Shown here: piece after piece, positions 10,812 through 31,612 of the stretch
Numbering within the stretch: position 1 is the stretch's first letter
How the letters are laid out: each line of letters begins with the position of its first letter
Origin: Betaproteobacteria bacterium
GTDB taxonomy: Bacteria; Pseudomonadota; Gammaproteobacteria; Burkholderiales; SG8-39
Assembly (NCBI GenBank): GCA_005881595.1
Contig: VBBY01000141.1
Location: forward strand, 1-34,680
DNA: 34,680 bases
Direction of reading: 5' to 3'
The notes under the pieces: model-generated
Told to the model about the DNA's origin: nothing
Database searches by the model: none
The model's input: only the letters and a program-made list of their open reading frames with translations
Program-made: the position numbers and the translations under genes

Positions 10812-11246
10812 ATGCAACGCATTGCCATTCTCCTTGCCGCAGCCCTGCTCGCCGGCTGCGAAGCCCCTCCGGTCACCAAGGAGGAAATGAGCTCGGTCGA
10901 CTATGGCCCGCGCCCGACGCGCTGGCAGGAGGAGATCCGCAGCTACCTCGGCATCCGGCTCACCGATCCCAAGTCGGCGATCATCGAGTTCCGCACCGAG
11001 CCCAAGCAGATGTACCAGCGGGCGACCGACGTGCGCGACCGGCAATGGGGCTGGGCGACCTGCGTGTGGATCAACGACAAGAACTCCTCCGGCGCCTACG
11101 ACGGCTTCTACCCGATGACCGTCTTCCTGCGCGAGGAAAAGATCGTCGCCGTGAACAACGGGCCGGATGATTTCGGCGTGATCGGCGCGACCTACGCGCG
11201 CCGGCAATGCGCCGAGCTCGGCGCGCCGTTTACGCCGCGGCCCTAG
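10812..11246 (+). CDS. Small outer- or inner-membrane lipoprotein, unknown function
   Basis: 144 residues. The signal sequence MQRIAILLAAALLAGC ends in a good lipobox (LLAGC, Cys16). The start was placed at this ATG rather than an upstream in-frame codon, because only it puts the lipobox at the right distance; CGGAGA precedes it. The mature part is short with one clear feature, Y-L-G-I-R-L-T-D-P-K-S-A, and a conserved-looking W-G-W-A-T-C-V-W-I-N core. Residue after Cys16 is Glu, so outer-membrane sorting is expected if this is a standard Lol substrate. It is divergent from DUF1993 and overlaps the convergent oxygenase gene by 4 nt. Confidence 0.85.
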   Translation: MQRIAILLAAALLAGCEAPPVTKEEMSSVDYGPRPTRWQEEIRSYLGIRLTDPKSAIIEFRTEPKQMYQRATDVRDRQWGWATCVWINDKNSSGAYDGFYPMTVFLREEKIVAVNNGPDDFGVIGATYARRQCAELGAPFTPRP

Positions 11247-12040
11247 AAGAAGGCCAGCGTGCGCGCCTCGATGCTCTGGCGCGGCGAGGACCCCGGCGGC
11301 GTCGCCGGGTCGACGAACGAGGTGTGCGGCGTGAAGCGCGCCCGTCCGTCGGTCTCCGAGTCGTAGACCTTGAAGACCAGCGCCTCGTCGCGCCGCATCT
11401 CGGGGAAGTAGAACCAGCGGTGGCCGGGGTTGTACTTCAGGCGGTAGGTCTGGCCGACGCGGTGCGGATAGCGCCGCTCGGCCACCAGCAGGTCCTCGGG
11501 CACGAGGCTGCGCGAGTCCAGGATGGCGAGCGGATTCGCCTGGATCGGCTTTCTGATCGCGCGCCACACCTGGATGATCGCGAAGCGGCGCCTGAGCAGC
11601 CGCTCCGCCTCGTCGCCCATGATCTCCCTCACGCGCTGCGGCCCCGACCACTCGGTGTAGTCGTTGTGCGCCGAAAGCACCGGCTCGCGCACCAGCTTCG
11701 CCTCGCGCTCGGCCTCGTCGCCCGAGCGCAAGGTGTGGTCGAACACCACTACGCGCTTCGCTCCAGACAGCTCCTTCACCAGCTGCTCGAGCTCGGGGTA
11801 GTAGACCGACTCGAGCTGCCGCGGGTCGAAGAAGTCCTTCACCGCGCTCTTGTGGTCGACGAGCACGAAGCCGTTTTCGTCGAGCGAGAATTCCTTGCGC
11901 GCCGGCCGGCCGTCGCGGATCTCCACGGGGTGCGCCTGCTCGGTGCCGCTCGTGCGCCGGCGGATGTTGTTCGGCCCGAAGGTCTCGTTGACGAGCTTCT
12001 CGCCGGTGTCGACGGTGTAGACGATCTCGGCGGCGGTCAT
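11243..12040 (-). CDS. CmcJ/NvfI-type 2-oxoglutarate/Fe(II) oxygenase-like protein
   Basis: 265 residues, no signal peptide. It resembles the CmcJ/NvfI group: V-V-V-F-D-H-T-L-R (97-105), an H-x-D motif in S-A-H-N-D-Y-T-E (His125, Asp127), I-I-Q-V-W-R-A-I-R-K-P (155-165), W-F-Y-F-P-E-M (209-215), L-V-F-K-V-Y-D-S (221-228) and a distal F-T-P-H-T-S-F (His239). His125, Asp127 and His239 fit an Fe(II) facial triad. The family includes cephamycin and fungal oxygenases, and many bacterial members are called methyltransferases wrongly. It starts one nucleotide after the DctP stop and is the last gene of the exported-enzyme operon, probably its only cytosolic enzyme. Confidence 0.85.
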   Translation of the reverse strand: MTAAEIVYTVDTGEKLVNETFGPNNIRRRTSGTEQAHPVEIRDGRPARKEFSLDENGFVLVDHKSAVKDFFDPRQLESVYYPELEQLVKELSGAKRVVVFDHTLRSGDEAEREAKLVREPVLSAHNDYTEWSGPQRVREIMGDEAERLLRRRFAIIQVWRAIRKPIQANPLAILDSRSLVPEDLLVAERRYPHRVGQTYRLKYNPGHRWFYFPEMRRDEALVFKVYDSETDGRARFTPHTSFVDPATPPGSSPRQSIEARTLAFF

Positions 12041-12041
12041 G

Positions 12042-13049
12042 TCAGCCGAGCTTGCCGACCTCGCGCTCGAGCAGGCTCCAGGCCGTCGGCCCGAACTCGC
12101 TCTTCCAGCGCTGGTAGAAGCCGCCGCCGAGCTTGGCGCGGAAAGTCGACACGTCCGCGGTGTTGAAGATCATGCCGCGCGCGGCGAGCTTGTCGCCGAG
12201 CTGGCGGTTCAGGTCGTCGGTGTAGGCGCGCTGCAGCGCGACGTACTTCTTCACGTTGCGCTGCACGATCTCCTGCACGTCCCCGGGCAGCGAGTTCCAG
12301 AACTTCAGGTTGGCGAGCAGGTTGAAGCCCGACCACATGTGGTTGGTCGTGGACACGTACTTCGTCACCTCGTAGAGCCGGTTCACTTCGGTGATCACCA
12401 GCGGGTTTTCCTGGCCGTCGACCTGGCGCGACTTGAGCGCCGCGTAGAGCTCGCGGATGTTGATCGTCACCGGCTGCGCCTCGAGCGCCGTGAACACGTC
12501 GCGGAACATCTGGCCGTCGGGAACGCGCATCCTCATGCCGCGCAGGTCCTCGGCGATGAGGACCGGCTTGTCGACCGTCGAGATCTGCCGGAAGCCGTTC
12601 TCGAGCAGCCCGTACTGGAAGCGGTAGATGCCCTTCGCCGCGCATTCGCGGCCGAGGTACTCGCCGAGCGCGCCGTCGTTCGCCCGGTGCACCTGCGCGT
12701 GGCTGGTGAAGGCGAACGGCATGCCCTGGATCTCGGCGACCGGAACCTTGCGCCCGAGGATGCCGCCCATCAGCGTGAAGAACTCGAGCTCCCCGCTCTG
12801 CAGCAGCTCGAGCGCGCCGGGATCGGAGCCCGGGAGGTTGTTGTTCTGCGGGTAGGTCGTGACCTGCAGCCGGCCGCCGGTCTCCTTCGCCACCTGCGCC
12901 CACAGGTCCGAGAGGAACTGGTGCTGGTGGCTCTGCGCCGGCTGGTTATGGAATTGCCTTGCTTTCCAGGAAGTCTCTCTCGTCCCGGCCGCGCAGCCTG
13001 TCAGCGCCAGCCCCGTGGCCACCACCAATCTGCGGCGCGTCGCATTCAC
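12042..13049 (-). CDS. TRAP-type solute-binding lipoprotein (DctP family)
   Basis: 335 residues with a GTG start overlapping the cytochrome stop as GTGA. The N-terminus has both three arginines (TRRRLVV) and a lipobox-like LTGC (Cys19), so it is a lipoprotein, possibly Tat-routed. DctP features: P-G-S-D-P-G-A-L-E-L-L-Q-S-G-E-L-E, the ligand-clamp region L-R-G-M-R-M-R-V-P-D near residue 170, and F-W-N-S-L-P-G-D-V-Q-E-I-V. TRAP receptors capture organic acids. No DctQ/DctM membrane genes are in the window, so it is an orphan that must use a distant permease, or serve the neighbouring periplasmic enzymes. Confidence 0.9.
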   Translation of the reverse strand: MNATRRRLVVATGLALTGCAAGTRETSWKARQFHNQPAQSHQHQFLSDLWAQVAKETGGRLQVTTYPQNNNLPGSDPGALELLQSGELEFFTLMGGILGRKVPVAEIQGMPFAFTSHAQVHRANDGALGEYLGRECAAKGIYRFQYGLLENGFRQISTVDKPVLIAEDLRGMRMRVPDGQMFRDVFTALEAQPVTINIRELYAALKSRQVDGQENPLVITEVNRLYEVTKYVSTTNHMWSGFNLLANLKFWNSLPGDVQEIVQRNVKKYVALQRAYTDDLNRQLGDKLAARGMIFNTADVSTFRAKLGGGFYQRWKSEFGPTAWSLLEREVGKLG

Positions 13050-13396
13050 CGCCTGCCCTCGAAGTTGAGCTGCGGGATGTTGGCCACCGCGGGCGAGGGC
13101 TTGACCGAGCGCAGGTAGGCGTAGATATCGGCGAGGTCCTGGTCGCCGAGATGATCCTTGCGATAGGCCGGCATGTCCTGCCGCGGCGTGCGCGTCTGCA
13201 TCGAGAACGCCACCCAGGGAAAGAGATTCGGCAGCAGCCTCGGCCCGGCGCCGCGCTCGCCGCCCTGGCCGACGGTGCCGTGGCAGCTGTAGCACTGGTA
13301 CTTCAGGAACGCCTGATGGCCGCGCTCGGGCGAGCCGGCGGGCGCGTCCTGTCCGAACACCACCGCGGGGAATAGCAACAGGATGAAAAATCTCAT
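13046..13396 (-). CDS. Periplasmic class I c-type cytochrome
   Basis: 116 residues. The signal peptide ends VVFG|Q at residue 15. One heme site, C-Y-S-C-H (35-39), is followed by G-T-V-G-Q-G-G, and Met75 in Q-D-M-P-A-Y is the likely axial ligand. The C-terminal helix D-L-A-D-I-Y-A-Y-L-R is typical. It starts within the stop of the ThDP-enzyme gene (TGATG) and overlaps DctP by GTGA, so expression is tied to both. It is small enough to be a soluble electron carrier. The simplest reading is that it accepts electrons from an enzyme in this operon. Confidence 0.93.
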   Translation of the reverse strand: MRFFILLLFPAVVFGQDAPAGSPERGHQAFLKYQCYSCHGTVGQGGERGAGPRLLPNLFPWVAFSMQTRTPRQDMPAYRKDHLGDQDLADIYAYLRSVKPSPAVANIPQLNFEGRR

Positions 13397-15264
13397 CAGC
13401 GCCCCTGCGTCACCACGTCGACCAGCGCCGGCTCGCCGCGCTTCACCACCGCCACCGCGCGCTGCAGTGCCGGCGCGATCGCCGCCGGATCGGTGATCGG
13501 GCCTTCGGCCCACACGCCCTGCGCGCGCGCGAGCAGCGCGTAGTCGATGTGCGGGTTCTCGATGGTGGTGCCGATGCGCGCGGTGTCCATGCGCCGGTTG
13601 TGCAGCCCGGCCATCTTCTGCAGGTGCATCACTTCCTGGTGATAGGCGCGGTTGTTGTGCATCAGCATGAGGATCGGGATCTTGTGGTGCGCCGCGGTCC
13701 ACAGCACGCCCGGCGCATACATCAGGTCGCCGTCGGGCTGGATCACCGCGGTGAGGATGCCCTTGTCGCGGTTGGCGAGCGCCGCGCCGACCGCCGCGGG
13801 CGCGATCTGGCCGACGCCCGCAGCGCCGGAGTGGCCGAGGAAGTTGTAATGCTCGGTCGCCGGCCAAAGGCGCGCGCTCCAGCCGAGGTTGCGCGAGTCG
13901 GCGAGACACCACTTGTCGCCCTTGATCGCGTTCCACAGCTCGGCCGAGAGCCGCGCGGTGGTCACCGGGACCGCGTTCCAGCCGTTCGCGGCCGCGGCGC
14001 GCGTGCGCTCCTTCATCTCGCGGTGCTGCGAGCGCAGCTTGTCGGTGCGCCCGGCAAGCGCCGATTTTCTCGAGCCGCCGATTTCCTTCTTCACCGCTTC
14101 GGTGAGCGCGGGCAGCGTGGCTTCCGCGTCGCCGCTGATCGAAAGATCGCAGGGGCAGAAGCGCTGCGCGTCCTGGTAGTTCGACTTCATCAGATTGTCC
14201 GCCAACGTGACGTGGATCAGCTTCACGTCGGGCTTCGCGATGCGGCGGTACTCGTGCTGCGGGTCGCTGATGGTGTTGAGCTGGCCCCAGGGATCGGCGA
14301 CCTCGAGCATCAGCACCACGTCGGCCTCGCGCACCAGCGCGCGGCCGTCCTCGCTGCGGCACAGGTAGTGCGTGGTCGGGAAGTTCATGCGGCTGCCGAG
14401 GTCGACCACCGGGGCGTTCAGCGCCTCGGCGAGCTCGACCATCCGCCTGACGCCCTCCTGCGAGCGCGCGGCGCGGTCGGCGATGATGACGAGATTCTCC
14501 GCGCTCGCCATCATCTTCGCCGCTTCCTTCAGCGCGCCGCTCTCGCCCTGCGGCGGCGCCGACAGCGTGAGCTTCGGAATGGAAAGCTCCGCGTCCCCGT
14601 CGACCGGGTGCTCCTGCAGCATGCCGTCGGCGATGATCACCACCGGCTCCATCGGCGGCGTCGTGGCGAACTTGTAGGCGCGCATCACCGACTCGGCGAA
14701 GTGCTGCAGCGAAGCCGGCTGGTCGTCCCACTTGATGTAGTCGCGCAGGATGCCGGCCGGGTCCTGCACGCAGTGGTACCACTCGACGCCGGGGCGCCGA
14801 TGGGCTGCATCCATGAAGTTGCCGGCGAAGAGCATCACCGGCACGCGGTCGCACCACGCGTTGTACACCGCCATCGCGGCGTGCTGCAGGCCGACGCTGC
14901 CGTGCGCGAGCACGCCCATCGGCTTGCCGGCCGCCTTGGCGTAGCCGTGCGCCATGGCGACCGAGGACTCCTCGTGCATGCAGGTCAGGAACTCGGGCTT
15001 CCTGTTGCCGCCGTAGTTGACGATCGACTCGTGCAGGCTCCTGAAGCTCGAGGCCGGGTTGGAGGCGATGTACTCGATGCCGGTCGCCTTGATGACGTCG
15101 ACCATGAAGTCGGAGCCGGGCCTGCCGATGATTCTCTCGCCCGGCAGGCCGCTTGACGGTTTTTTAGCAGTCTCTGCAGAAACCGTACTCGCGGCGGCCA
15201 TGGTGGTACCGATTGCCGCGGCAGTCTTCAGGAAGGTCCGGCGATCGAGTCCTTCTTCGCTCAT
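13396..15264 (-). CDS. Tat-exported ThDP-dependent enzyme (acetolactate-synthase/decarboxylase superfamily)
   Basis: 622 residues. An N-terminal twin-arginine signal (D-R-R-T-F-L-K, 7-13, then a hydrophobic Ala-rich stretch and a VSA|E site at residue 30) precedes a complete three-domain ThDP enzyme. The Pyr domain (about 45-215) has the activating Glu in C-M-H-E-E (98-99) and A-H-G-S-V-G. A Rossmann-like middle domain (about 240-395) follows. The PP domain (about 430-620) has the ThDP motif G-D-L (512-514) to N-N (537-538). Such enzymes cleave bonds next to a 2-oxo group and normally work in the cytosol. Tat export fits a folded cofactor-loaded protein. It lies 14 nt after the cyclase gene and is fused by stop/start overlap to the cytochrome gene. 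Substrate unknown. Confidence 0.92.
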   Translation of the reverse strand: MSEEGLDRRTFLKTAAAIGTTMAAASTVSAETAKKPSSGLPGERIIGRPGSDFMVDVIKATGIEYIASNPASSFRSLHESIVNYGGNRKPEFLTCMHEESSVAMAHGYAKAAGKPMGVLAHGSVGLQHAAMAVYNAWCDRVPVMLFAGNFMDAAHRRPGVEWYHCVQDPAGILRDYIKWDDQPASLQHFAESVMRAYKFATTPPMEPVVIIADGMLQEHPVDGDAELSIPKLTLSAPPQGESGALKEAAKMMASAENLVIIADRAARSQEGVRRMVELAEALNAPVVDLGSRMNFPTTHYLCRSEDGRALVREADVVLMLEVADPWGQLNTISDPQHEYRRIAKPDVKLIHVTLADNLMKSNYQDAQRFCPCDLSISGDAEATLPALTEAVKKEIGGSRKSALAGRTDKLRSQHREMKERTRAAAANGWNAVPVTTARLSAELWNAIKGDKWCLADSRNLGWSARLWPATEHYNFLGHSGAAGVGQIAPAAVGAALANRDKGILTAVIQPDGDLMYAPGVLWTAAHHKIPILMLMHNNRAYHQEVMHLQKMAGLHNRRMDTARIGTTIENPHIDYALLARAQGVWAEGPITDPAAIAPALQRAVAVVKRGEPALVDVVTQGR

Positions 15265-15278
15265 GCTGTGCTCCTCGT

Positions 15279-16217
15279 CTAGCGGATGGCTGCCGGCGCG
15301 ACGCTCGAGCCCGAGGCGCCGTAGATCTTCAGGGGCTGCATCGTGAACGCGAACTCGTAGACGCGCTTCGCGACCAGCTCGTCGAGCTTCAGGTTTTCCA
15401 GGATGTGGATGCCGTTTACCACCAGGAAGATCTGGTGCACCGGCAGGCTCAGGTCCTTGTCGGGGTTCGGCGCCACTTCCACCGGCCAGTTATCGGAGCC
15501 GACGAGCAGCGGGTCCTGCTTCGCCAGCCACTCGGCCGCGGCGACCCCTACGCCCGGGGCGCTCTTCACGAAGCGCGCGTTGTCCTTGCCGTAGAGCTTG
15601 CCCCAGCCGGTGTGGATGATGACCGCGTCGCCCGGCAGCAGCTTGAGGTTTTCCCGCTGCAGGGCCTGCTGCAGATCGGCGACGGTGATCTCGTAGGTGT
15701 CGCCGAGCATCTCGACGCCCTTCAGGCCGGCAACGTCGATCAGCACGCCGCGCGCGAAGAACGTCGGTGCGTTCTGCACGCCGAGCCTGGTGAAGCCGGA
15801 GCGCGTCGCCGTCTCGCTGATCTTGAAGCAGTTGTAAAGCGAATCACCGTGGCTCTGGTGCGCGAAGCCGTCGAACTGGGTGCCCACCTGGCCGATCTCG
15901 GAAGTCACGACCTCCTCGTTGCTGCCGCGCGTGTTCCTCCCGGTGTTCATGAAGGTGCGCTTGGTGTGCAGGTTGAAGATGCGCGTGCCGAAGAACGCCA
16001 TCCCGGGCCCGAGCACGTAGCCCAGCTCGATCACCTCGCCGGTCTTGATGAGCCGCGCGCCGCGCAGCACGACCTCGGGGTTCTTCATGTGGTTGCCCGA
16101 GCCGCGCTCGTCGCCCGCGCCCCACTTCGACGGGCAGCGCTGGCTTTCGGGCGGCACGTTCCACTGCGCGGCGGCGACCAACGGGACTGCAAGCAAGGCA
16201 GCGGCGATGCGCTTCAT
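15279..16217 (-). CDS. Exported cyclase-family protein (PF04199-like metal hydrolase)
   Basis: 312 residues. Sec signal peptide ends AAA|Q at residue 17. The fold is that of the kynurenine-formamidase/isatin-hydrolase cyclase family: Y-V-L-G-P-G-M-A-F-F-G near residue 70, the metal region G-Q-V-G-T-Q-F-D-G-F-A-H (109-120), L-P-G-D-A-V-I-I-H-T-G-W-G near residue 195, and a late L-P-V-H-Q-I-F-L. In the classical HxGTHxDxPxH motif the first two His positions are Gln here (Gln110, Gln114), while Asp116 and His120 remain. Members open lactams, amides or lactones. It lies between the ABM protein and the ThDP enzyme in one operon. Confidence 0.9.
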   Translation of the reverse strand: MKRIAAALLAVPLVAAAQWNVPPESQRCPSKWGAGDERGSGNHMKNPEVVLRGARLIKTGEVIELGYVLGPGMAFFGTRIFNLHTKRTFMNTGRNTRGSNEEVVTSEIGQVGTQFDGFAHQSHGDSLYNCFKISETATRSGFTRLGVQNAPTFFARGVLIDVAGLKGVEMLGDTYEITVADLQQALQRENLKLLPGDAVIIHTGWGKLYGKDNARFVKSAPGVGVAAAEWLAKQDPLLVGSDNWPVEVAPNPDKDLSLPVHQIFLVVNGIHILENLKLDELVAKRVYEFAFTMQPLKIYGASGSSVAPAAIR

Positions 16218-16227
16218 CGTTTTCCCC

Positions 16228-16905
16228 TTAGTTGACGGCTTCGTAAAGGCGTTCGTCGTACAGCGCCCCGCTCATCGGTGCGAGCCTGTCGCGGAACTCG
16301 CGCACGTGCGGGGCCATGCCGTGCGCGTCGAAGGCTTCCCGGCTCGCCCAGATCTCGATCACGGTGAAATGGTTCGGCCGGTTGGTCTGCTGCACGATCT
16401 CGTAGCGCAGGTTGCCGTCGTCGCGGCGGCTCGCTTCGCCGAGGCTCTTCAGCAGGCCGACGGCGTCGTCCTTGCGCGGCGGGATGACGTCGACGTGGGT
16501 CACGACGTAGACGCCGCGCGCGGGGCGCGCGCCGTCCAGGTCCCCGACCGAGAGCGCATTGTGGAAGCGATCGTCGGCCGGGCTGTTGCGCAGCCCCTGG
16601 AGCTTGTCGCGGAATTCCCGGGTGGAGGCGGCCGCGGCGTGCGCCTCGTACGCCTTCTGGTCCTTCCAGGCCGTGAGGAGGACGAACTGGCCCGGCCGGG
16701 CTGCGTGCTGCACCGCCTCCGAGCGCAGATTTCCGTCTTCCCGGCGGGTAGCGTCGCGGTAGCCCTTGAGGAGCGTCGCGGCTTCCGACTTCGCCGGCGG
16801 CTTCACCTCGACATAAGTCACCACGTAGAGCGGCGCTGGACCTTGAGCGAACACTTCGAAGGCAGCCAATAAAAACAGCGCGGTGCACTTGCGGACAACC
16901 GACAT
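16228..16905 (-). CDS. Exported protein with two tandem ABM (antibiotic biosynthesis monooxygenase-like) domains
   Basis: 225 residues; GAGGAGGAG precedes the ATG. The signal peptide ends VFA|Q at residue 20. Two similar halves follow: Y-V-V-T-Y-V-E-V-K-P-P (27-37) with E-D-G-N-L-R-S-E, and Y-V-V-T-H-V-D-V-I-P-P (about 133-143) with D-D-G-N-L-R-Y-E; each ends in F-R-D-(K/R)-L. These are dimeric alpha-beta barrel ABM domains, here fused so that one chain can form the usual dimer. ABM proteins range from cofactorless monooxygenases to binding proteins. It is the first gene of the exported-enzyme operon. Activity is unproven. Confidence 0.88.
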   Translation of the reverse strand: MSVVRKCTALFLLAAFEVFAQGPAPLYVVTYVEVKPPAKSEAATLLKGYRDATRREDGNLRSEAVQHAARPGQFVLLTAWKDQKAYEAHAAAASTREFRDKLQGLRNSPADDRFHNALSVGDLDGARPARGVYVVTHVDVIPPRKDDAVGLLKSLGEASRRDDGNLRYEIVQQTNRPNHFTVIEIWASREAFDAHGMAPHVREFRDRLAPMSGALYDERLYEAVN

Positions 16906-17002: not shown

Positions 17003-18508
17003 ATGGTCAGCCGCAGGAAATTCCTCGGGTTCACCGGCCTTGCCGCCGCCTGGCCGAATGCCGCGTGGACCCAGGACGAAAAGGGCAAGGCCAAGCCCAA
17101 GCCGAAGCCCGAGGGCGTCGTCGTCAACGACGTGCACGCGCAGCTCAACTCGACGCGGGTGTTCCGCATCGTCGAGCCGCAATCGATCGAGGCCGTGCGC
17201 GCCGCGATGAAGCTGGCGCGGACCGAGAAGCGCGCGCTGTGCATCGCCGGCGGGCGCCACGCCATGGGCACGCAGCAGTTCGCCACCGACGGCGTGCTGC
17301 TCGACATCCGCAAGATGAACAGGGTGCTGGCGTTCGACACCGAGCGCGGGCTGATCGAGATGGAATCGGGCATGCAGTGGCCGCAGCTGCTCGAGCACCT
17401 GGCGGCGGCGCGCTTCTCCGGCGACAAGCAATGGGCTTTCAACCAGAAGCAGACCGGCGCCGACCGGCTGACGATGGGCGGCTGCCTCGCGGCGAACATC
17501 CACGGCCGCGGGCTGACGCTGCCGCCGTTCATCTCCGATGTCGAGTCGTTCACGCTCATCGACGCGAAGGGCGAGCTGCGTCCCTGCAGCCGCACCGAGA
17601 ACGCCGAGCTGTTCCGCCTCGCGATCGGCGGCTACGGCCTGTTCGGCTTCGTCTACTCCGTCACGCTGCGCCTGGTCCCGCGCCGCAAGCTCGAGCGGGC
17701 GGTCGAGCTGCGCACGGTGGACGAGATTCCCGGCGCCTTTGCCGAGCGCATCCGCGACGGCTTCCTGTACGGCGACTTCCAGTGCGCGATCGACGATCTT
17801 TCGCCGGACGATTTCCTGCGCCGCGGCGTGTTCTCGTGCTACCGGCCGGCGCCCGACGACACGCCGATGCCCCCGGCGCACAAGGAGCTCAGCGAGCGCG
17901 ACCGGATAGAGCTGCTCTACCTCGCGCACAAGGACAAGCCGGCCGCCTTCCAGCGCTACGCCGGCCAATACCTCGCGACCAACGGGCAGCTCTACTGGTC
18001 CGACGAGCAGCAGATGAGCATCTATCCCGAGAACTACCACCGCGCTCTCGACAAGCGGCTGCAGTCGGAGTTCCGCGGCACCGAAGCGATCACCGAGATT
18101 CTCTGCGAGCGCGACGCGCTGCCGGCGTTCATGGCCGAGGTCGCCCGCAATGCGCGCCGCGAGAAGATGGAGATCATCTCCGGCGCGGTGCGGCTCATCG
18201 AGCAGGACAAGGAGAGCTTCCTCGCCTGGGCGAGTAAGCCCTACGCCTGCGTCGTCTTCAACCTGCACATCGAGCACACCTCGCGCGGCCTGATCCGCGC
18301 CGGCGACCAGTTCCGCCGCCTGATCGACCTGGGCATCAAGTACGGCGGCAGCTGGTATCCGACGTATCACCGGCACGCGCTGCGTCGCCAGGTCGACGCC
18401 TGCTACCCGCAGCTTGCCGACTTCCTCAAGCTCAAGCGCAAGTACGACCCGGAAGAGCTGTTCCAGAGCGACTGGTACCGGCACTACAAGAACATGTTCA
18501 ACTACTGA
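17003..18508 (+). CDS. Tat-exported FAD-binding oxidoreductase (VAO/PCMH family)
   Basis: 501 residues. The ATG with AAGGGGGAAGG in front was chosen because it places a Tat signal (S-R-R-K-F-L-G-F) at residues 3-10; an earlier in-frame start would bury it. A Lys-Pro repeat linker (about 27-37) follows. The FAD_binding_4 domain begins near residue 50; C-I-A-G-G-R-H-A-M-G (80-89) is the flavin-binding loop, with His86 at the position of covalent flavin linkage in related oxidases. M-G-G-C-L-A-A-N-I-H-G-R-G near residue 155 and G-G-Y-G-L-F-G-F-V near residue 210 are further PCMH marks. It is divergent from the ThDP/cytochrome operon. Substrate unknown. Confidence 0.9.
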   Translation: MVSRRKFLGFTGLAAAWPNAAWTQDEKGKAKPKPKPEGVVVNDVHAQLNSTRVFRIVEPQSIEAVRAAMKLARTEKRALCIAGGRHAMGTQQFATDGVLLDIRKMNRVLAFDTERGLIEMESGMQWPQLLEHLAAARFSGDKQWAFNQKQTGADRLTMGGCLAANIHGRGLTLPPFISDVESFTLIDAKGELRPCSRTENAELFRLAIGGYGLFGFVYSVTLRLVPRRKLERAVELRTVDEIPGAFAERIRDGFLYGDFQCAIDDLSPDDFLRRGVFSCYRPAPDDTPMPPAHKELSERDRIELLYLAHKDKPAAFQRYAGQYLATNGQLYWSDEQQMSIYPENYHRALDKRLQSEFRGTEAITEILCERDALPAFMAEVARNARREKMEIISGAVRLIEQDKESFLAWASKPYACVVFNLHIEHTSRGLIRAGDQFRRLIDLGIKYGGSWYPTYHRHALRRQVDACYPQLADFLKLKRKYDPEELFQSDWYRHYKNMFNY

Positions 18509-20829: not shown

Positions 20830-21113
20830 CCCTCGCCCCACACGCAAAGCAAGCTCATCACCGGCTTCAGGCTGCGGCCGATTTCGGTAAGGGCGTACTC
20901 GACGCGCAGCGGCGAGCTGTCGTAGACCTTGCGTGTGACGATGCTGTCGCGCTCGAGCTGGCGCAGTTGCGCCGTGAGCACCCTCTTACTGATGCCCCCG
21001 GTGGCGCGCTGCAGCTCGTTGAAGCGCGCGATGCCCTCGAACAGGTTGTAGACAACGGCGCGGGGGCGCCCTAGAGTGGCACGCACCCCAACTGGAGACT
21101 GAAATGATCGCAT
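20748..21113 (-). CDS. HxlR-type winged-helix regulator, short and possibly N-terminally eroded
   Basis: 121 residues. The core is plainly Hxl[19 protein letters not shown], then [22 protein letters not shown] and L-C-V-W-G. The usual N-terminal C-P-(8-10)-G-G-K-W segment is poorly kept: S-P-V replaces C-P-V and the G-G-K-W block is shortened to L-G-R. The ATG lies 10 nt inside the divergent [2Fe-2S] gene and has no ribosome site, so the true start is uncertain. HxlR proteins often repress a divergent gene, here the molybdenum hydroxylase. It could be a decaying copy. Confidence 0.6.
21045..21056. promoter_or_regulatory. Inverted repeat GTTGT-AG-ACAAC, candidate operator
   Basis: A 5-bp inverted repeat with a 2-nt centre overlaps the candidate -35 element of the molybdenum-hydroxylase operon and lies in the 5' part of the divergent HxlR-type gene. 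The position suits a repressor site, but short inverted repeats arise easily by chance. Confidence 0.3.
21049..21077 (+). promoter_or_regulatory. Candidate sigma70-type promoter of the molybdenum hydroxylase genes
   Basis: TAGACA (21049-21054) and TAGAGT (21072-21077) are separated by 17 nt, and the [2Fe-2S] gene starts 26 nt later with TGGAGA as ribosome site. The elements match consensus at five of six and four of six positions. The promoter would lie inside the 5' end of the divergent HxlR-type reading frame. Confidence 0.35.
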
Positions 21114-21562
21114 TGAACGTCAACGGCAAGCGCGTCGAGGTCGACGCCGAGGCCGACACGCCGCTGCTCTGGGTGCTGCGCGACTACCTCGACATGACCG
21201 GCACCAAGTTCGGCTGCGGCATGGCGCTGTGCGGCGCGTGCACCGTCCACATCGACGGCCAGCCGACGCGAAGCTGCGTGACGCCCGCCTCGGCGGTGGC
21301 CGGAAAGAGCATCACGACGATCGAAGCGATCGGCGCAACCCGGGCCGGCAAGGCGGTGCAGGACGCCTGGGTCGCGGAGAACGTGCCGCAGTGCGGCTAC
21401 TGCCAGTCGGGCCAGGTGATGAGCGCTGCGGCGCTCCTCGCTTCGAAGAAGAACCCGGGCGACGCCGACATCGACAGCGCGATGTCCGGAAACATCTGCC
21501 GCTGCGCCACCTACCCGCGCATCCGCGCCGCCATAAAGCGCGCGGCAAGGGGGCTCGCATGA
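21104..21562 (+). CDS. Xanthine-dehydrogenase-family [2Fe-2S] small subunit (IorA/CoxS type)
   Basis: 152 residues. It has two [2Fe-2S] clusters: the plant-ferredoxin type with Cys38, Cys43, Cys46 and Cys58 ([10 protein letters not shown]), and the helical type with Cys97, Cys100, Cys132 and Cys134 (C-G-Y-C-Q-S-G and I-C-R-C). All eight ligands are present. It passes electrons from the molybdenum centre of the partner encoded next. No FAD subunit gene follows, so like isoquinoline 1-oxidoreductase and related aldehyde dehydrogenases it probably uses another acceptor, such as a cytochrome. Its stop overlaps the next start as ATGA. Confidence 0.96.
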
Positions 21563-23736
21563 TCGCCAACGTCAGCCGCAGGGATTTTTTCAAGGCGTCG
21601 GGTGCCCTCGTTCTCGCTATCTCCTTTCCTGGAAAAGTATTTTCCCAAACGCAGAATGCTTTCTCGCCCAACGCATTTGTCAGGATCGGCTCCGACAACA
21701 GCGTCACCGTGATCGTGAAGCACCTCGAGATGGGGCAGGGCACCTACACCGGGCTGCCGACGCTGGTCGCCGAGGAGCTCGACGCCGACTGGTCGCAGAT
21801 CCGGGTCGAGGGCGCGCCCGCCGACGCGAGCCGCTACAACAACCTGTTCTGGGGCCAGGCGCAGGGCACCGGCGGCAGCACCGCGCTCGCCAATTCCTAC
21901 GAGCAGCTGAGGAAGGCGGGCGCCACCGCGCGCGCCATGCTGGTCGCCGCGGCTGCGCAGAAATGGGGCGTGCCTGCCTCGCAAATCACCGTTGCGAAAG
22001 GCGTGGTTCAACATCAGAAAGGCAGGCTGACGTTCGGCGAGCTGGCGGCCGATGCCGCAAGCCAGCCGGTGCCGGCCGAAGTCGCGCTCAAGGACCCGAA
22101 GGACTTCGCCTACATCGGCAAGCCCGCGGCGCGCACCGACGCGCGCGCCAAGTCGAACGGCAGCGCGATGTTCACGCAGGACGTGAAGCTGCCGGGCATG
22201 CTCACCGCCGTGGTGCTGCACCCCGAGCGCTTCGGCGCGAAGCTCAAGAGCTTCGACGCCGCCAGGGCAAAAGCCGTCAAGGGCGTGGTCGATGTCGTCG
22301 CCTTCTCCACGCCGGCGACGAACGGCGTCGCAGTGCTCGCCCGGGACTACTGGAGCGCGAAGAAAGGCCGCGATGCGCTCACCGCGGAGTGGGACGAAAC
22401 CGGCGCCTTTCGCCTGGGCTCGGCCGAGATCATGGCCGAGTACAAGAAGCTCGCCGTCACGCAGGGCACCGTGGCGCGCAAGGATGGCGACGTCGAGCGC
22501 GCGCTGAAGGACGCGCCGAGGAAGCTCGAGGCGGCCTACGAGTTCCCGTACCTCGCGCACGCCAGCATGGAGCCGATGAACTGCGTGGTGAAGCTCGACG
22601 CCAATAGTGAAAAGGCAGGCTGCGAGATCTGGAACGGCGAGCAGTTCCAGACCATCGACCAGGCGGTCGTGGCGAAGCTCCTCGGGCTCAAGCCCGAGCA
22701 GGTGAAGCTCAACATGCTGTACGCCGGCGGCAGCTTCGGCCGGCGCGCCAACCCGCAGTCCGACTTCGTGCTGGAAGCGGCGGCGATTGCAAAAGCGATC
22801 GACGCTCGCGCCCCGGTGAAGCTGGTCTGGGGGCGCGAGGACGACATGCGCGCGGGTTACTACCGGCCCATGTACTACCACTCGCTCGAAGCGGGCCTCG
22901 ACGCGCGCGGCAGGCTGATCGCGTGGCGCCACAGCATCGTCGGCCAGTCGATCCTCGCCGGCACCGCGTTCGAGCCGATGATGGTGAAGAACGGCGTCGA
23001 CGCCACCTCGGTGGAAGGCGCCGCCACCCTGCCCTACGCGATCCCGAACCTCGCCGTCGACCTGCACTCCCCGAAGCTCGGCGTGCCGGTGCAGTGGTGG
23101 CGCTCGGTGGGCTCGACGCACACCGCCTTCGCCACCGAGTGCTTCCTAGACGAGGTCGCGCGCGCCACGAAGCGGGACCCGTTCCAGCTGCGCCGCGCGC
23201 TCCTCGGCAAGCACCCGCGCCACAAGGCGGCGCTCGAGCTCGCCGCGCAGAAGGCGGGCTGGGGCAAGCCGCTCGCCAATGGGAAAAATGAGGGCCGCTC
23301 GCGCGGCATCGCGGTGCACGAGTCGTTCAATACCTTCGTCGCCCAGGTGGCCGAGATCTCGAGGAAGAAAGACGGCTCCCTCAGGCTCGAGCGCGTCGTT
23401 TGCGCGGTCGACTGCGGCGTCGCCGTCAACCCGAACATCATCGCCATGCAGATGGAGTCGGGCATCGGCTACGGCCTGTCGGCCGCGCTGACAGGTGCAA
23501 TCACGCTGAAGGACGGCAAGGTCGAGCAGTCCAACTTCCACGACTACCCGGTGCTGCGCATCAACCAGATGCCGCGGGTCGAAGTCCACATCGTTGCCTC
23601 AAAGGAGAAACCGAGCGGGGTCGGCGAGCCCGCCACGCCGGTGATCGCGCCAGCGCTCGCGAACGCGATCCTCGCGCTCGGCGGCAAGCCGGTGCGGGCG
23701 CTGCCGCTATCGGCCCAGGGAATTACCTTTTCTTGA
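21559..23736 (+). CDS. Xanthine-dehydrogenase-family molybdopterin-binding subunit, Tat signal (IorB type)
   Basis: 725 residues, the normal size of IorB-like Mo subunits. The ATG overlapping the small-subunit stop gives a Tat signal (S-R-R-D-F-F-K, 6-12, with a hydrophobic core ending near VFS|Q); the small subunit has none and would be co-exported. Mo-hydroxylase marks: M-G-Q-G-T-Y-T-G near residue 57, Q-G-T-G-G-S-T near residue 106, A-G-G-S-F-G-R-R-A near residue 390, and the catalytic Glu in G-V-G-E-P-A-T-P near the C-terminus. It hydroxylates N-heterocycles or oxidises aldehydes. The end overlaps the convergent IF-1 gene by 14 nt. Confidence 0.95.
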
Positions 23737-29839: not shown

Positions 29840-31612
29840 ATGACCAAGATTCTCATGCGAGGCGTATGCGTCGCCGCCATCGCGGCGGCTGGCATGTGCG
29901 GGGCTTCGGCGCAGCAGATGATCGAGCCGGCCTCGGCAACGCCGGTGCCGGGACCGATGCCGGAGATCCTTCGGCAGTACACGGCGGTGACCGCCGCGCG
30001 GCTGAAAAATCCGGAGGACGGCAATTGGCTGATGTTCCGCCGCACCTTCGACGGCTGGGGTTACAGCCCGCTCGGGGAGATCACGCCTGCCAATGTGAGC
30101 CGGCTGCAGCCGGCCTGGAGCTTCGCTACCGGCCAGACGGAAGGCCATGAGGCGCCGCCGGTCGTGAACAACGGCGTCATGTTCGTCGCCACGCCCGGCA
30201 ACCAGCTGCTCGCGCTGGAGGCGAGGACCGGCAAGGTGCTGTGGCGGTACAAGCGCCCGTTCCCCGAAGACATGACCCCGCTGCACCCGACGAGTCGCGG
30301 CGTGGGGCTTTACGGCGACAAGGTGTATTTCGCGGCAGCGGAAGCGGTGCTGGTCGCGATCGATGCCAGGACCGGCAAGGAAGCCTGGGCCGCCAAGGTC
30401 GACGACTATAAAAAGGGCTACTACCTGTCGCTCGCGCCGCTCGTAATCGACGGCAAGGTGCTGCTCGGCGCATCAGGCGGTGAATTGGGCGCGCGCGGCT
30501 TCCTCGCGGCCTTCGACGCGGAGACCGGAAGGGAGCTCTGGAGGACCTATACGGTGCCCGCGCCGGGCGAGCCGGGCAGCGAGACCTGGCCCGCGGGCGG
30601 CGACCACTATAAGCGGGGCGGCGCCTCGATCTGGATCACCGGCACCTATGACCCCGAGACCAATCTCACTTTCTGGGGCACCGGCAACGGCGGCCCATGG
30701 TTCGGGGATCAGCGTCCCGGCGACAATCTCTTCACCAGCTCGGTGGTCGCCTTCAACCCCGGCACCGGGCAGATCAAGGGACACTTTCAATATCATCCCA
30801 ACGACTCCTGGGATTGGGACGAAGTCTCGCCGCCGCTGATCGTCGACTACCGGCGCGACGGGAGAACCGTGAAAGGCCTCGTCAACGTCGCTCGAAACGG
30901 CTATCTCTGGCAGCTCGAGCGCACGCACGACAAGATCAACTTCGTTGCCGGCCAGCCCTACGTGCGCCAGAACGTGTTCAAGGGCCTCGATCCCAGGACC
31001 GGACGGCCCGACGTCGACGAGACGCGCAAGCCGGGCACCAACAAGACCGCCGAGTTCTGTCCGAGCCTGTGGGGCGGCAAGAATTGGCCGCCGGCCGCGT
31101 ACAGCCCGCAAACGCGGATGCTCTACATCCCCGCCAACGACAACCTCTGCACACAACTCACCGGCGAGGCCCCGAAATACGTGCAGGGCGAGCGTTTCCA
31201 GGGCGTCGCGAAAAACGTGCTGAAGATGGTTGCCGGCGCCGACCACATCGGCGAGCTGCAGGCCTGGAATCTCGATACCGGCAAAAAGGTATGGACGACC
31301 AACATGCCGTCGTTCAATTGGGGCCCGGTCCTCGCCACGGGCGGCGGATTGCTGTTCGCGGGCGGCACCAACGATCGCATGTTCCGCGCGTTCGACGCCA
31401 GGACCGGCAAGATCCTGTGGGAGTTCCCGACCGGCTCGGGCGTTGCCGGAGTGCCGGTATCGTTCCAGGTCGACGGCAAGCAATATGTCGCGGTGCAGTC
31501 CGGCTGGGGCGTCGACCCCGCGAAAATGCAAACGCGCATGAACCTGATTTTCCCCGGCCAGTATCCGGATGTGCCGCAGGGGGGGACGGTCTGGGTGTTC
31601 GCCGTGAAGTGA
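29840..31612 (+). CDS. PQQ-dependent alcohol dehydrogenase (methanol/ethanol family), periplasmic
   Basis: 590 residues; GAGGAGG precedes the ATG. The signal peptide ends ASA|Q at residue 24. Eight-bladed propeller W-motifs recur (L-E-A-R-T-G-K-V-L-W, I-D-A-R-T-G-K-E-A-W, F-D-A-E-T-G-R-E-L-W, W-N-L-D-T-G-K-K-V-W, F-D-A-R-T-G-K-I-L-W). Metal and catalytic positions appear as Glu215, Asn283 and Asp325 in S-W-D-W-D, with a second Asp327 two residues on. No vicinal Cys pair is present where many members have one. It oxidises a primary alcohol or aldehyde with PQQ. The window has no pqq genes. A Rieske protein gene precedes it. Confidence 0.95.
   Translation: MTKILMRGVCVAAIAAAGMCGASAQQMIEPASATPVPGPMPEILRQYTAVTAARLKNPEDGNWLMFRRTFDGWGYSPLGEITPANVSRLQPAWSFATGQTEGHEAPPVVNNGVMFVATPGNQLLALEARTGKVLWRYKRPFPEDMTPLHPTSRGVGLYGDKVYFAAAEAVLVAIDARTGKEAWAAKVDDYKKGYYLSLAPLVIDGKVLLGASGGELGARGFLAAFDAETGRELWRTYTVPAPGEPGSETWPAGGDHYKRGGASIWITGTYDPETNLTFWGTGNGGPWFGDQRPGDNLFTSSVVAFNPGTGQIKGHFQYHPNDSWDWDEVSPPLIVDYRRDGRTVKGLVNVARNGYLWQLERTHDKINFVAGQPYVRQNVFKGLDPRTGRPDVDETRKPGTNKTAEFCPSLWGGKNWPPAAYSPQTRMLYIPANDNLCTQLTGEAPKYVQGERFQGVAKNVLKMVAGADHIGELQAWNLDTGKKVWTTNMPSFNWGPVLATGGGLLFAGGTNDRMFRAFDARTGKILWEFPTGSGVAGVPVSFQVDGKQYVAVQSGWGVDPAKMQTRMNLIFPGQYPDVPQGGTVWVFAVK

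Follow-up and report, generated by a model that had tools for sequence, protein, structure and literature searches.

The window analysed here, 34,680 nt in length, is one whole contig (VBBY01000141.1) of the 257-contig, 3.79 Mb assembly GCA_005881595.1 of a Betaproteobacteria bacterium. On the minus strand, from position 16905 down to 11243, six tightly packed open reading frames (ORFs) were all confirmed. The core of the cluster comprises two of them, which encode a thiamine diphosphate (ThDP)-dependent enzyme and a small c-type cytochrome. The genes of the cluster are as follows:

16228..16905, minus strand: tandem ABM-domain protein (Pfam/NCBIfam match, 2.5e-31) with a Sec-type signal
15279..16217, minus strand: PF04199 cyclase-family hydrolase (Cyclase, 3.2e-22) with a Sec-type signal, a gene without conservation in related loci
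13396..15264, minus strand: ThDP-dependent enzyme of 622 aa, core gene, TPP_enzyme N, M and C domains above cut-off, RRTFLK at residues 8–13
13046..13396, minus strand: secreted mono-heme c-type cytochrome of 116 aa, core gene (Cytochrome_CBB3; CYSCHG...GQGG...MPAY)
12042..13049, minus strand: DctP-type TRAP (tripartite ATP-independent periplasmic) solute-binding lipoprotein (DctP, 6e-61; RRRLVV...LTGC lipobox)
11243..12040, minus strand: CmcJ/NvfI family oxidoreductase (NF041278, 1.4e-95) without an export signal

The intergenic distances, from the ABM gene through to the CmcJ gene, were 10, 14, -1, -4, and 1 nt. Export signals were readable on five of the six products, with CmcJ as the exception, and that of the cytochrome could be read directly in the sequence (MRFFILLLFPAVVFGQ). 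The initial annotation had described the packing, the five signals, the gene names and a complete ThDP enzyme carrying RRTFLK, and the ORFs, the measured gaps and the Pfam/NCBIfam matches agreed with all of these. It had also described the ThDP enzyme as translationally fused to the cytochrome, which was incorrect: the stop of the first gene and the start of the second share one base (TGATG), and the two are separate ORFs that are at most translationally coupled. No fused ThDP-cytochrome ORF was found in the window or in the loci examined.

The Pyr, middle and PP domains of the ThDP enzyme (PF02776, PF00205, and PF02775) were complete. Its AlphaFold model had a mean pLDDT (predicted local distance difference test) of 89.8, with low values only in the signal and the linker. 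Fold matches in the PDB were ThDP decarboxylases, lyases and carboligases at 16–22% identity, and the best sequence match among the solved structures was benzoylformate decarboxylase (BFDC, MdlC; PDB 1bfd, 4q9d), which has the same three-domain ThDP fold at ~20% identity. In the alignment with BFDC, its catalytic Glu47 and His70 corresponded to Glu98 and His121 of the window enzyme; these two residues and the Asp511 and Asn538 of the Mg-binding site were invariant among 74 homologues. None of the named families tested was reached. The top-scoring one was NF006203/PRK08327 (“thiamine pyrophosphate-requiring protein”, without an assigned function), at 259.8 bits against a cut-off of 456; exported and non-exported relatives alike scored about 240–260 bits, and the family thus did not separate exported from cytosolic enzymes. 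The benzoylformate decarboxylase model PRK07092 gave 144.6 bits against an equivalog cut-off of 493, and the pyruvate oxidase model PRK08611 gave 75.6 against 742. The best reading of these comparisons is that the enzyme belongs to a benzoylformate-decarboxylase-like group, with BFDC probably the closest.

The N-terminus carries a putative signal for twin-arginine translocation (Tat). Tat is reported to transport folded proteins, which in E. coli are mostly binders of redox cofactors (PMC3712460). The window protein alone gave a weak Pfam TAT_signal match (0.011) under the cut-off, and the case for its export therefore lies in the conservation of the signal. A collection scan seeded with catalytic-domain peptides yielded 80 relatives at about 51–64% identity. 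In 79 of them, RRxF(L/M/I/F) followed the start codon in frame and preceded a hydrophobic stretch, and in the remaining one the gene start was cut off by the contig end. Several relatives reached the TIGR01409 cut-off. The hosts comprise Burkholderiales, Rhodospirillales, Hyphomicrobiales, Caulobacteraceae, other Pseudomonadota and many Acidobacteriota, some of them soil and freshwater bacteria, and include the cultured Caballeronia zhejiangensis and Novosphingobium. Paralogues at 34–41% identity, one of them in the same genome, had no Tat signal. Two outgroup sequences (L026 and L140) that matched the motif loosely were rejected as Tat proteins, since the motif lay upstream of their likely starts. 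The source genome encodes TatC (229 bits, G000:C128) and CcmH. A spurious signal ahead of a true start further downstream, the case of homologues without the Tat region that the initial annotation had considered, was rejected by this conservation. Tat export of the enzyme is thus a prediction that is well supported by the sequences.

The partner is a class I c-type cytochrome in its features, with CxxCH, a distal Met and a signal peptide (Pfam, 8.9e-10), and C35, C38, H39, and M75 were invariant (alignment A3). Using a profile of this cytochrome subfamily and a limit of 2.5 kb, a matching cytochrome was found beside the Tat-ThDP gene in 71 of 80 named loci, in all 19 loci from the family and order, and in both plasmid loci. 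Overall, 92 of 101 Tat loci were paired; three loci were present twice under different handles, and among the 98 distinct loci the count was 89. In contrast, the subfamily was found in none of 23 control loci of other, non-exported ThDP enzymes. The cytochrome gene was mostly downstream on the same strand, although 11 named loci had it in convergent orientation and one had it upstream. One of the nine named loci without an adjacent cytochrome is truncated 147 nt past the ThDP gene.

Co-occurrence at the genome level gave the same picture. The cytochrome subfamily was detected at E ≤ 1e-25 in 16 of 98 genomes of the family, and 15 of these were exactly the 15 genomes with a full-length Tat-ThDP gene, in which all 16 cytochrome sites adjoined that gene. 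Three of the 98 genomes departed from this pattern: in two, the ThDP gene was truncated at a contig end, and G048 had only a partial cytochrome. Chance adjacency of enzyme and cytochrome was rejected by this co-occurrence and by the controls. The pairing of the exported ThDP enzyme with the cytochrome is therefore well supported at the sequence level, and the conserved neighbourhood that the initial annotation had asked for exists in the recurring cytochrome. RefSeq labels the Caballeronia zhejiangensis pair WP_244808613/WP_244808614 simply as “thiamine pyrophosphate-binding protein” and “c-type cytochrome”.

Beyond the heme fold, a C-terminal tail resembling I-P-L-L was found in 76 of 92 partner cytochromes by a loose pattern and in 45 by a strict one. 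This tail, which follows the last helix, as in the window gene at 13046-13396, is a possible docking element. Some partners deviated from the mono-heme form: those in L093, L107, L108, L112, L116, and L122 were diheme or tandem cytochromes. In L060 (31-396), CFSCLG stood in place of CxxCH, which means that the heme-ligating His has been lost or that the base is a sequencing error. The acidobacterial genome G857 contained five Tat-ThDP and cytochrome pairs (L162–L166), which suggests an expansion for different substrates.

The type I Tat sequences, to which the window enzyme belongs, formed one clade with 99/99 support, and the sister group had neither Tat signal nor cytochrome. Acidobacteriota and Pseudomonadota were interleaved in this tree. 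Pairwise distances of the ThDP enzymes and their cytochromes were correlated (r = 0.83, 80 pairs, a value to which kinship of the species adds), and none of 2000 permutations exceeded 0.14. In genomes with two pairs, the nearest relatives of the partners matched clearly in five of seven tested and less so in two. This matched co-evolution points to direct contact between enzyme and cytochrome.

The combination was also found in distant groups. The source genome encodes a second ThDP enzyme, 26% identical to the first, with the signal RRSFLK (G000:C95; L175:7438-9620), and a different secreted cytochrome gene lies directly upstream with a 4 nt overlap. Among such type II loci in the family, the upstream cytochrome was present in 13 of 14, the remaining one having none within the short stretch covered. 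A third group (type III), with 37% identity to the second, had a diheme cytochrome downstream. The recurrence of exported ThDP enzyme plus cytochrome with different cytochromes and gene orders argues for a functional reason. The branches between the groups are long, and the tree is compatible with either separate origins or a single origin of export.

The rest of the cluster was far less conserved. The six cluster genes and three flanking genes were compared by tblastn with 100 loci, and the cytochrome was the only cluster gene that recurred generally. Two of the neighbouring genes are as follows:

17003..18508, plus strand: FAD_binding_4 (VAO/ALO type) oxidoreductase with the signal RRKFLG, divergent from the cluster
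10812..11246, plus strand: small lipoprotein at the 3' end of the cluster, convergent with the CmcJ gene, with a homologue in L038

L038, a 77%-identical locus from a congener, kept the ABM and CmcJ genes, the divergent flavin adenine dinucleotide (FAD) enzyme, the lipoprotein and a major facilitator superfamily gene, and no other locus did so. Its ABM gene adjoins the ThDP gene and encodes a product that also looks exported, and its FAD oxidoreductase carries an RRTFLK signal. The cyclase and DctP genes were absent from L038 by tblastn, and other DctP-like matches in the 100 loci were weak (22–30%). A conserved six-gene operon was rejected by this comparison, and the four genes other than the core look like lineage-specific additions. 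The gene order ABM-cyclase-ThDP-cytochrome-DctP, for which the initial annotation had proposed a search, was likewise unconserved, the core being ThDP plus cytochrome. Of the periplasmic route it had proposed, the Tat-exported ThDP enzyme tied to a cytochrome was retained, and the opening of a lactam or lactone by a six-gene pathway found no support.

Recurrent neighbours of the pair were TctC (29 loci), molybdenum hydroxylases (15), UbiD (12), amidohydrolases (11), and TctA (10). The Caballeronia locus contained a ring-hydroxylating dioxygenase, and protocatechuate-pathway-like genes were recognised by eye in L060. Apart from the cytochrome, none of the neighbours in the loci compared was general enough to indicate the substrate; they are suggestive of cyclic or aromatic acids but no more specific than that. 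No dehydrogenase was conserved with the pair among these loci. The window contig itself is rich in oxidative enzymes. Positions 21104-23736 contain a molybdenum hydroxylase pair resembling 4-hydroxybenzoyl-CoA reductase/xanthine dehydrogenase (aldehyde-oxidoreductase-like), and 29840-31612 a pyrroloquinoline quinone (PQQ) alcohol dehydrogenase that appears to carry a signal. The divergent twin-arginine FAD oxidoreductase at 17003-18508 could be part of one periplasmic pathway with the ThDP pair.

We consider it probable, judging from these sequence comparisons, that the two core genes form a module in which a periplasmic ThDP oxidoreductase hands electrons to a dedicated cytochrome c. The enzyme would fold with its cofactor in the cytosol, be exported by Tat and act either in the periplasm or at the periplasmic face of the inner membrane, cleaving a 2-oxo acid or related carbonyl compound there. 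From the ThDP-bound intermediate, two electrons would go singly to the partner cytochrome, which would pass them on to the respiratory chain. Neither coenzyme A (CoA) nor NAD would be expected in the periplasm; the acyl-ThDP would thus be hydrolysed with release of the carboxylic acid, as in PoxB. We infer the electron transfer, the redox chemistry and a direct step from ThDP to heme without flavin; direct one-electron oxidation of the intermediate by heme is plausible, as the closest relatives of solved structure lack flavin. A wider proposal, that such flavin-free enzymes passing enamine electrons directly to heme c are a new class that arose more than once (types I–III) and spread between phyla, is tentative, and we would put it at somewhat less than an even chance.

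Parts of this scheme have counterparts in known systems. BFDC, the closest in fold, is cytosolic, with no Tat signal, cytochrome partner or net redox reaction. PoxB and pyruvate oxidase likewise feed the respiratory chain with electrons from a decarboxylated intermediate, a functional analogy only; PoxB works on the inner face with FAD and ubiquinone, whereas the window enzyme has a Tat signal and a cytochrome c. In pyruvate:ferredoxin oxidoreductase, a metal centre oxidises the ThDP intermediate by one electron, as proposed here, but that enzyme has iron-sulfur clusters, CoA and another domain order, is cytosolic and lacks a Tat signal. The p-cresol methylhydroxylase PchF/PchC, like similar enzyme-cytochrome pairs, also joins a periplasmic catalytic subunit to a dedicated small class I cytochrome, and the cytochrome profile matched the PchC-type subunit 1dii_C (E = 7.9e-9); however, PchF is a flavoprotein of the vanillyl-alcohol oxidase type, and its counterpart in the window is a ThDP enzyme.

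Several observations weigh against the proposed module. Eight uncut loci had no adjacent cytochrome; their genomes carry one elsewhere, in some cases next to further copies of the ThDP gene. In the ThDP motif GDG, the first Gly is replaced, by P510 in the window enzyme. The nearest solved relatives mostly catalyse non-redox reactions, and the middle domain may hold a flavin. Kinship of the species inflates the co-evolution statistic, and most of the genomes are metagenome-assembled.

Four other explanations were considered. The first is that the exported enzyme is non-redox and decarboxylates, cleaves or ligates its substrate, and the cytochrome serves another step, such as taking up electrons from a separate dehydrogenase that acts on the aldehyde product. 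BFDC, benzaldehyde lyase and glyoxylate carboligase, its closest solved relatives, are of this kind, and the molybdenum pair and the PQQ dehydrogenase lie in the same window. However, the cytochrome alone is the invariant neighbour of the pair, with no conserved dehydrogenase, and the matched co-evolution suggests direct contact; we regard this explanation as unlikely but worth keeping in view. The second is a periplasmic version of a 2-oxo-acid oxidase, in which the ThDP protein binds a flavin as PoxB and pyruvate oxidase do and the cytochrome takes the electrons of the flavin. The PF00205 domain is present, FAD is bound there in several relatives, and PoxB is a known ThDP enzyme linked to the respiratory chain. 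This is improbable given the low pyruvate oxidase score and the absence of solved pyruvate oxidases from the top matches by sequence and by fold, where flavin-free BFDC and its relatives ranked first. The third is an ordinary cytosolic ThDP enzyme with an unused Tat-like N-terminus and a cytochrome neighbour by chance, in keeping with the sub-threshold TAT_signal match and the usual location of ThDP enzymes; it is very improbable, as the signal extends across two phyla and is missing from the sister group, the gene is linked to that of a necessarily periplasmic protein, and the pattern is repeated in distant groups. The last, a conserved six-gene exported pathway in which the cyclase opens a lactam or lactone before the oxo-acid is cleaved, has tight packing and five export signals in its favour and can hardly be upheld, because cyclase and DctP are missing even from L038 and ABM and CmcJ occur only there.

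To our knowledge, ThDP enzymes are generally taken to be cytosolic, and those known to catalyse redox reactions depend on FAD, lipoamide or iron-sulfur clusters. In agreement with the initial annotation, which knew of no described pathway of such composition, no description of an exported or periplasmic ThDP enzyme or of a ThDP-cytochrome c pair was found in the open-licence papers searched, subscription journals not being covered. Should the redox step hold, the pair may represent a new class. If the proposed electron transfer is true, these bacteria would cleave carbon-carbon bonds in the periplasm and gain respiratory electrons without importing the substrate, and the small heme protein would provide a colour readout of the ThDP radical chemistry. 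A large number of genes that at present are labelled only “thiamine pyrophosphate-binding protein” would then gain a new compartment and a new function.

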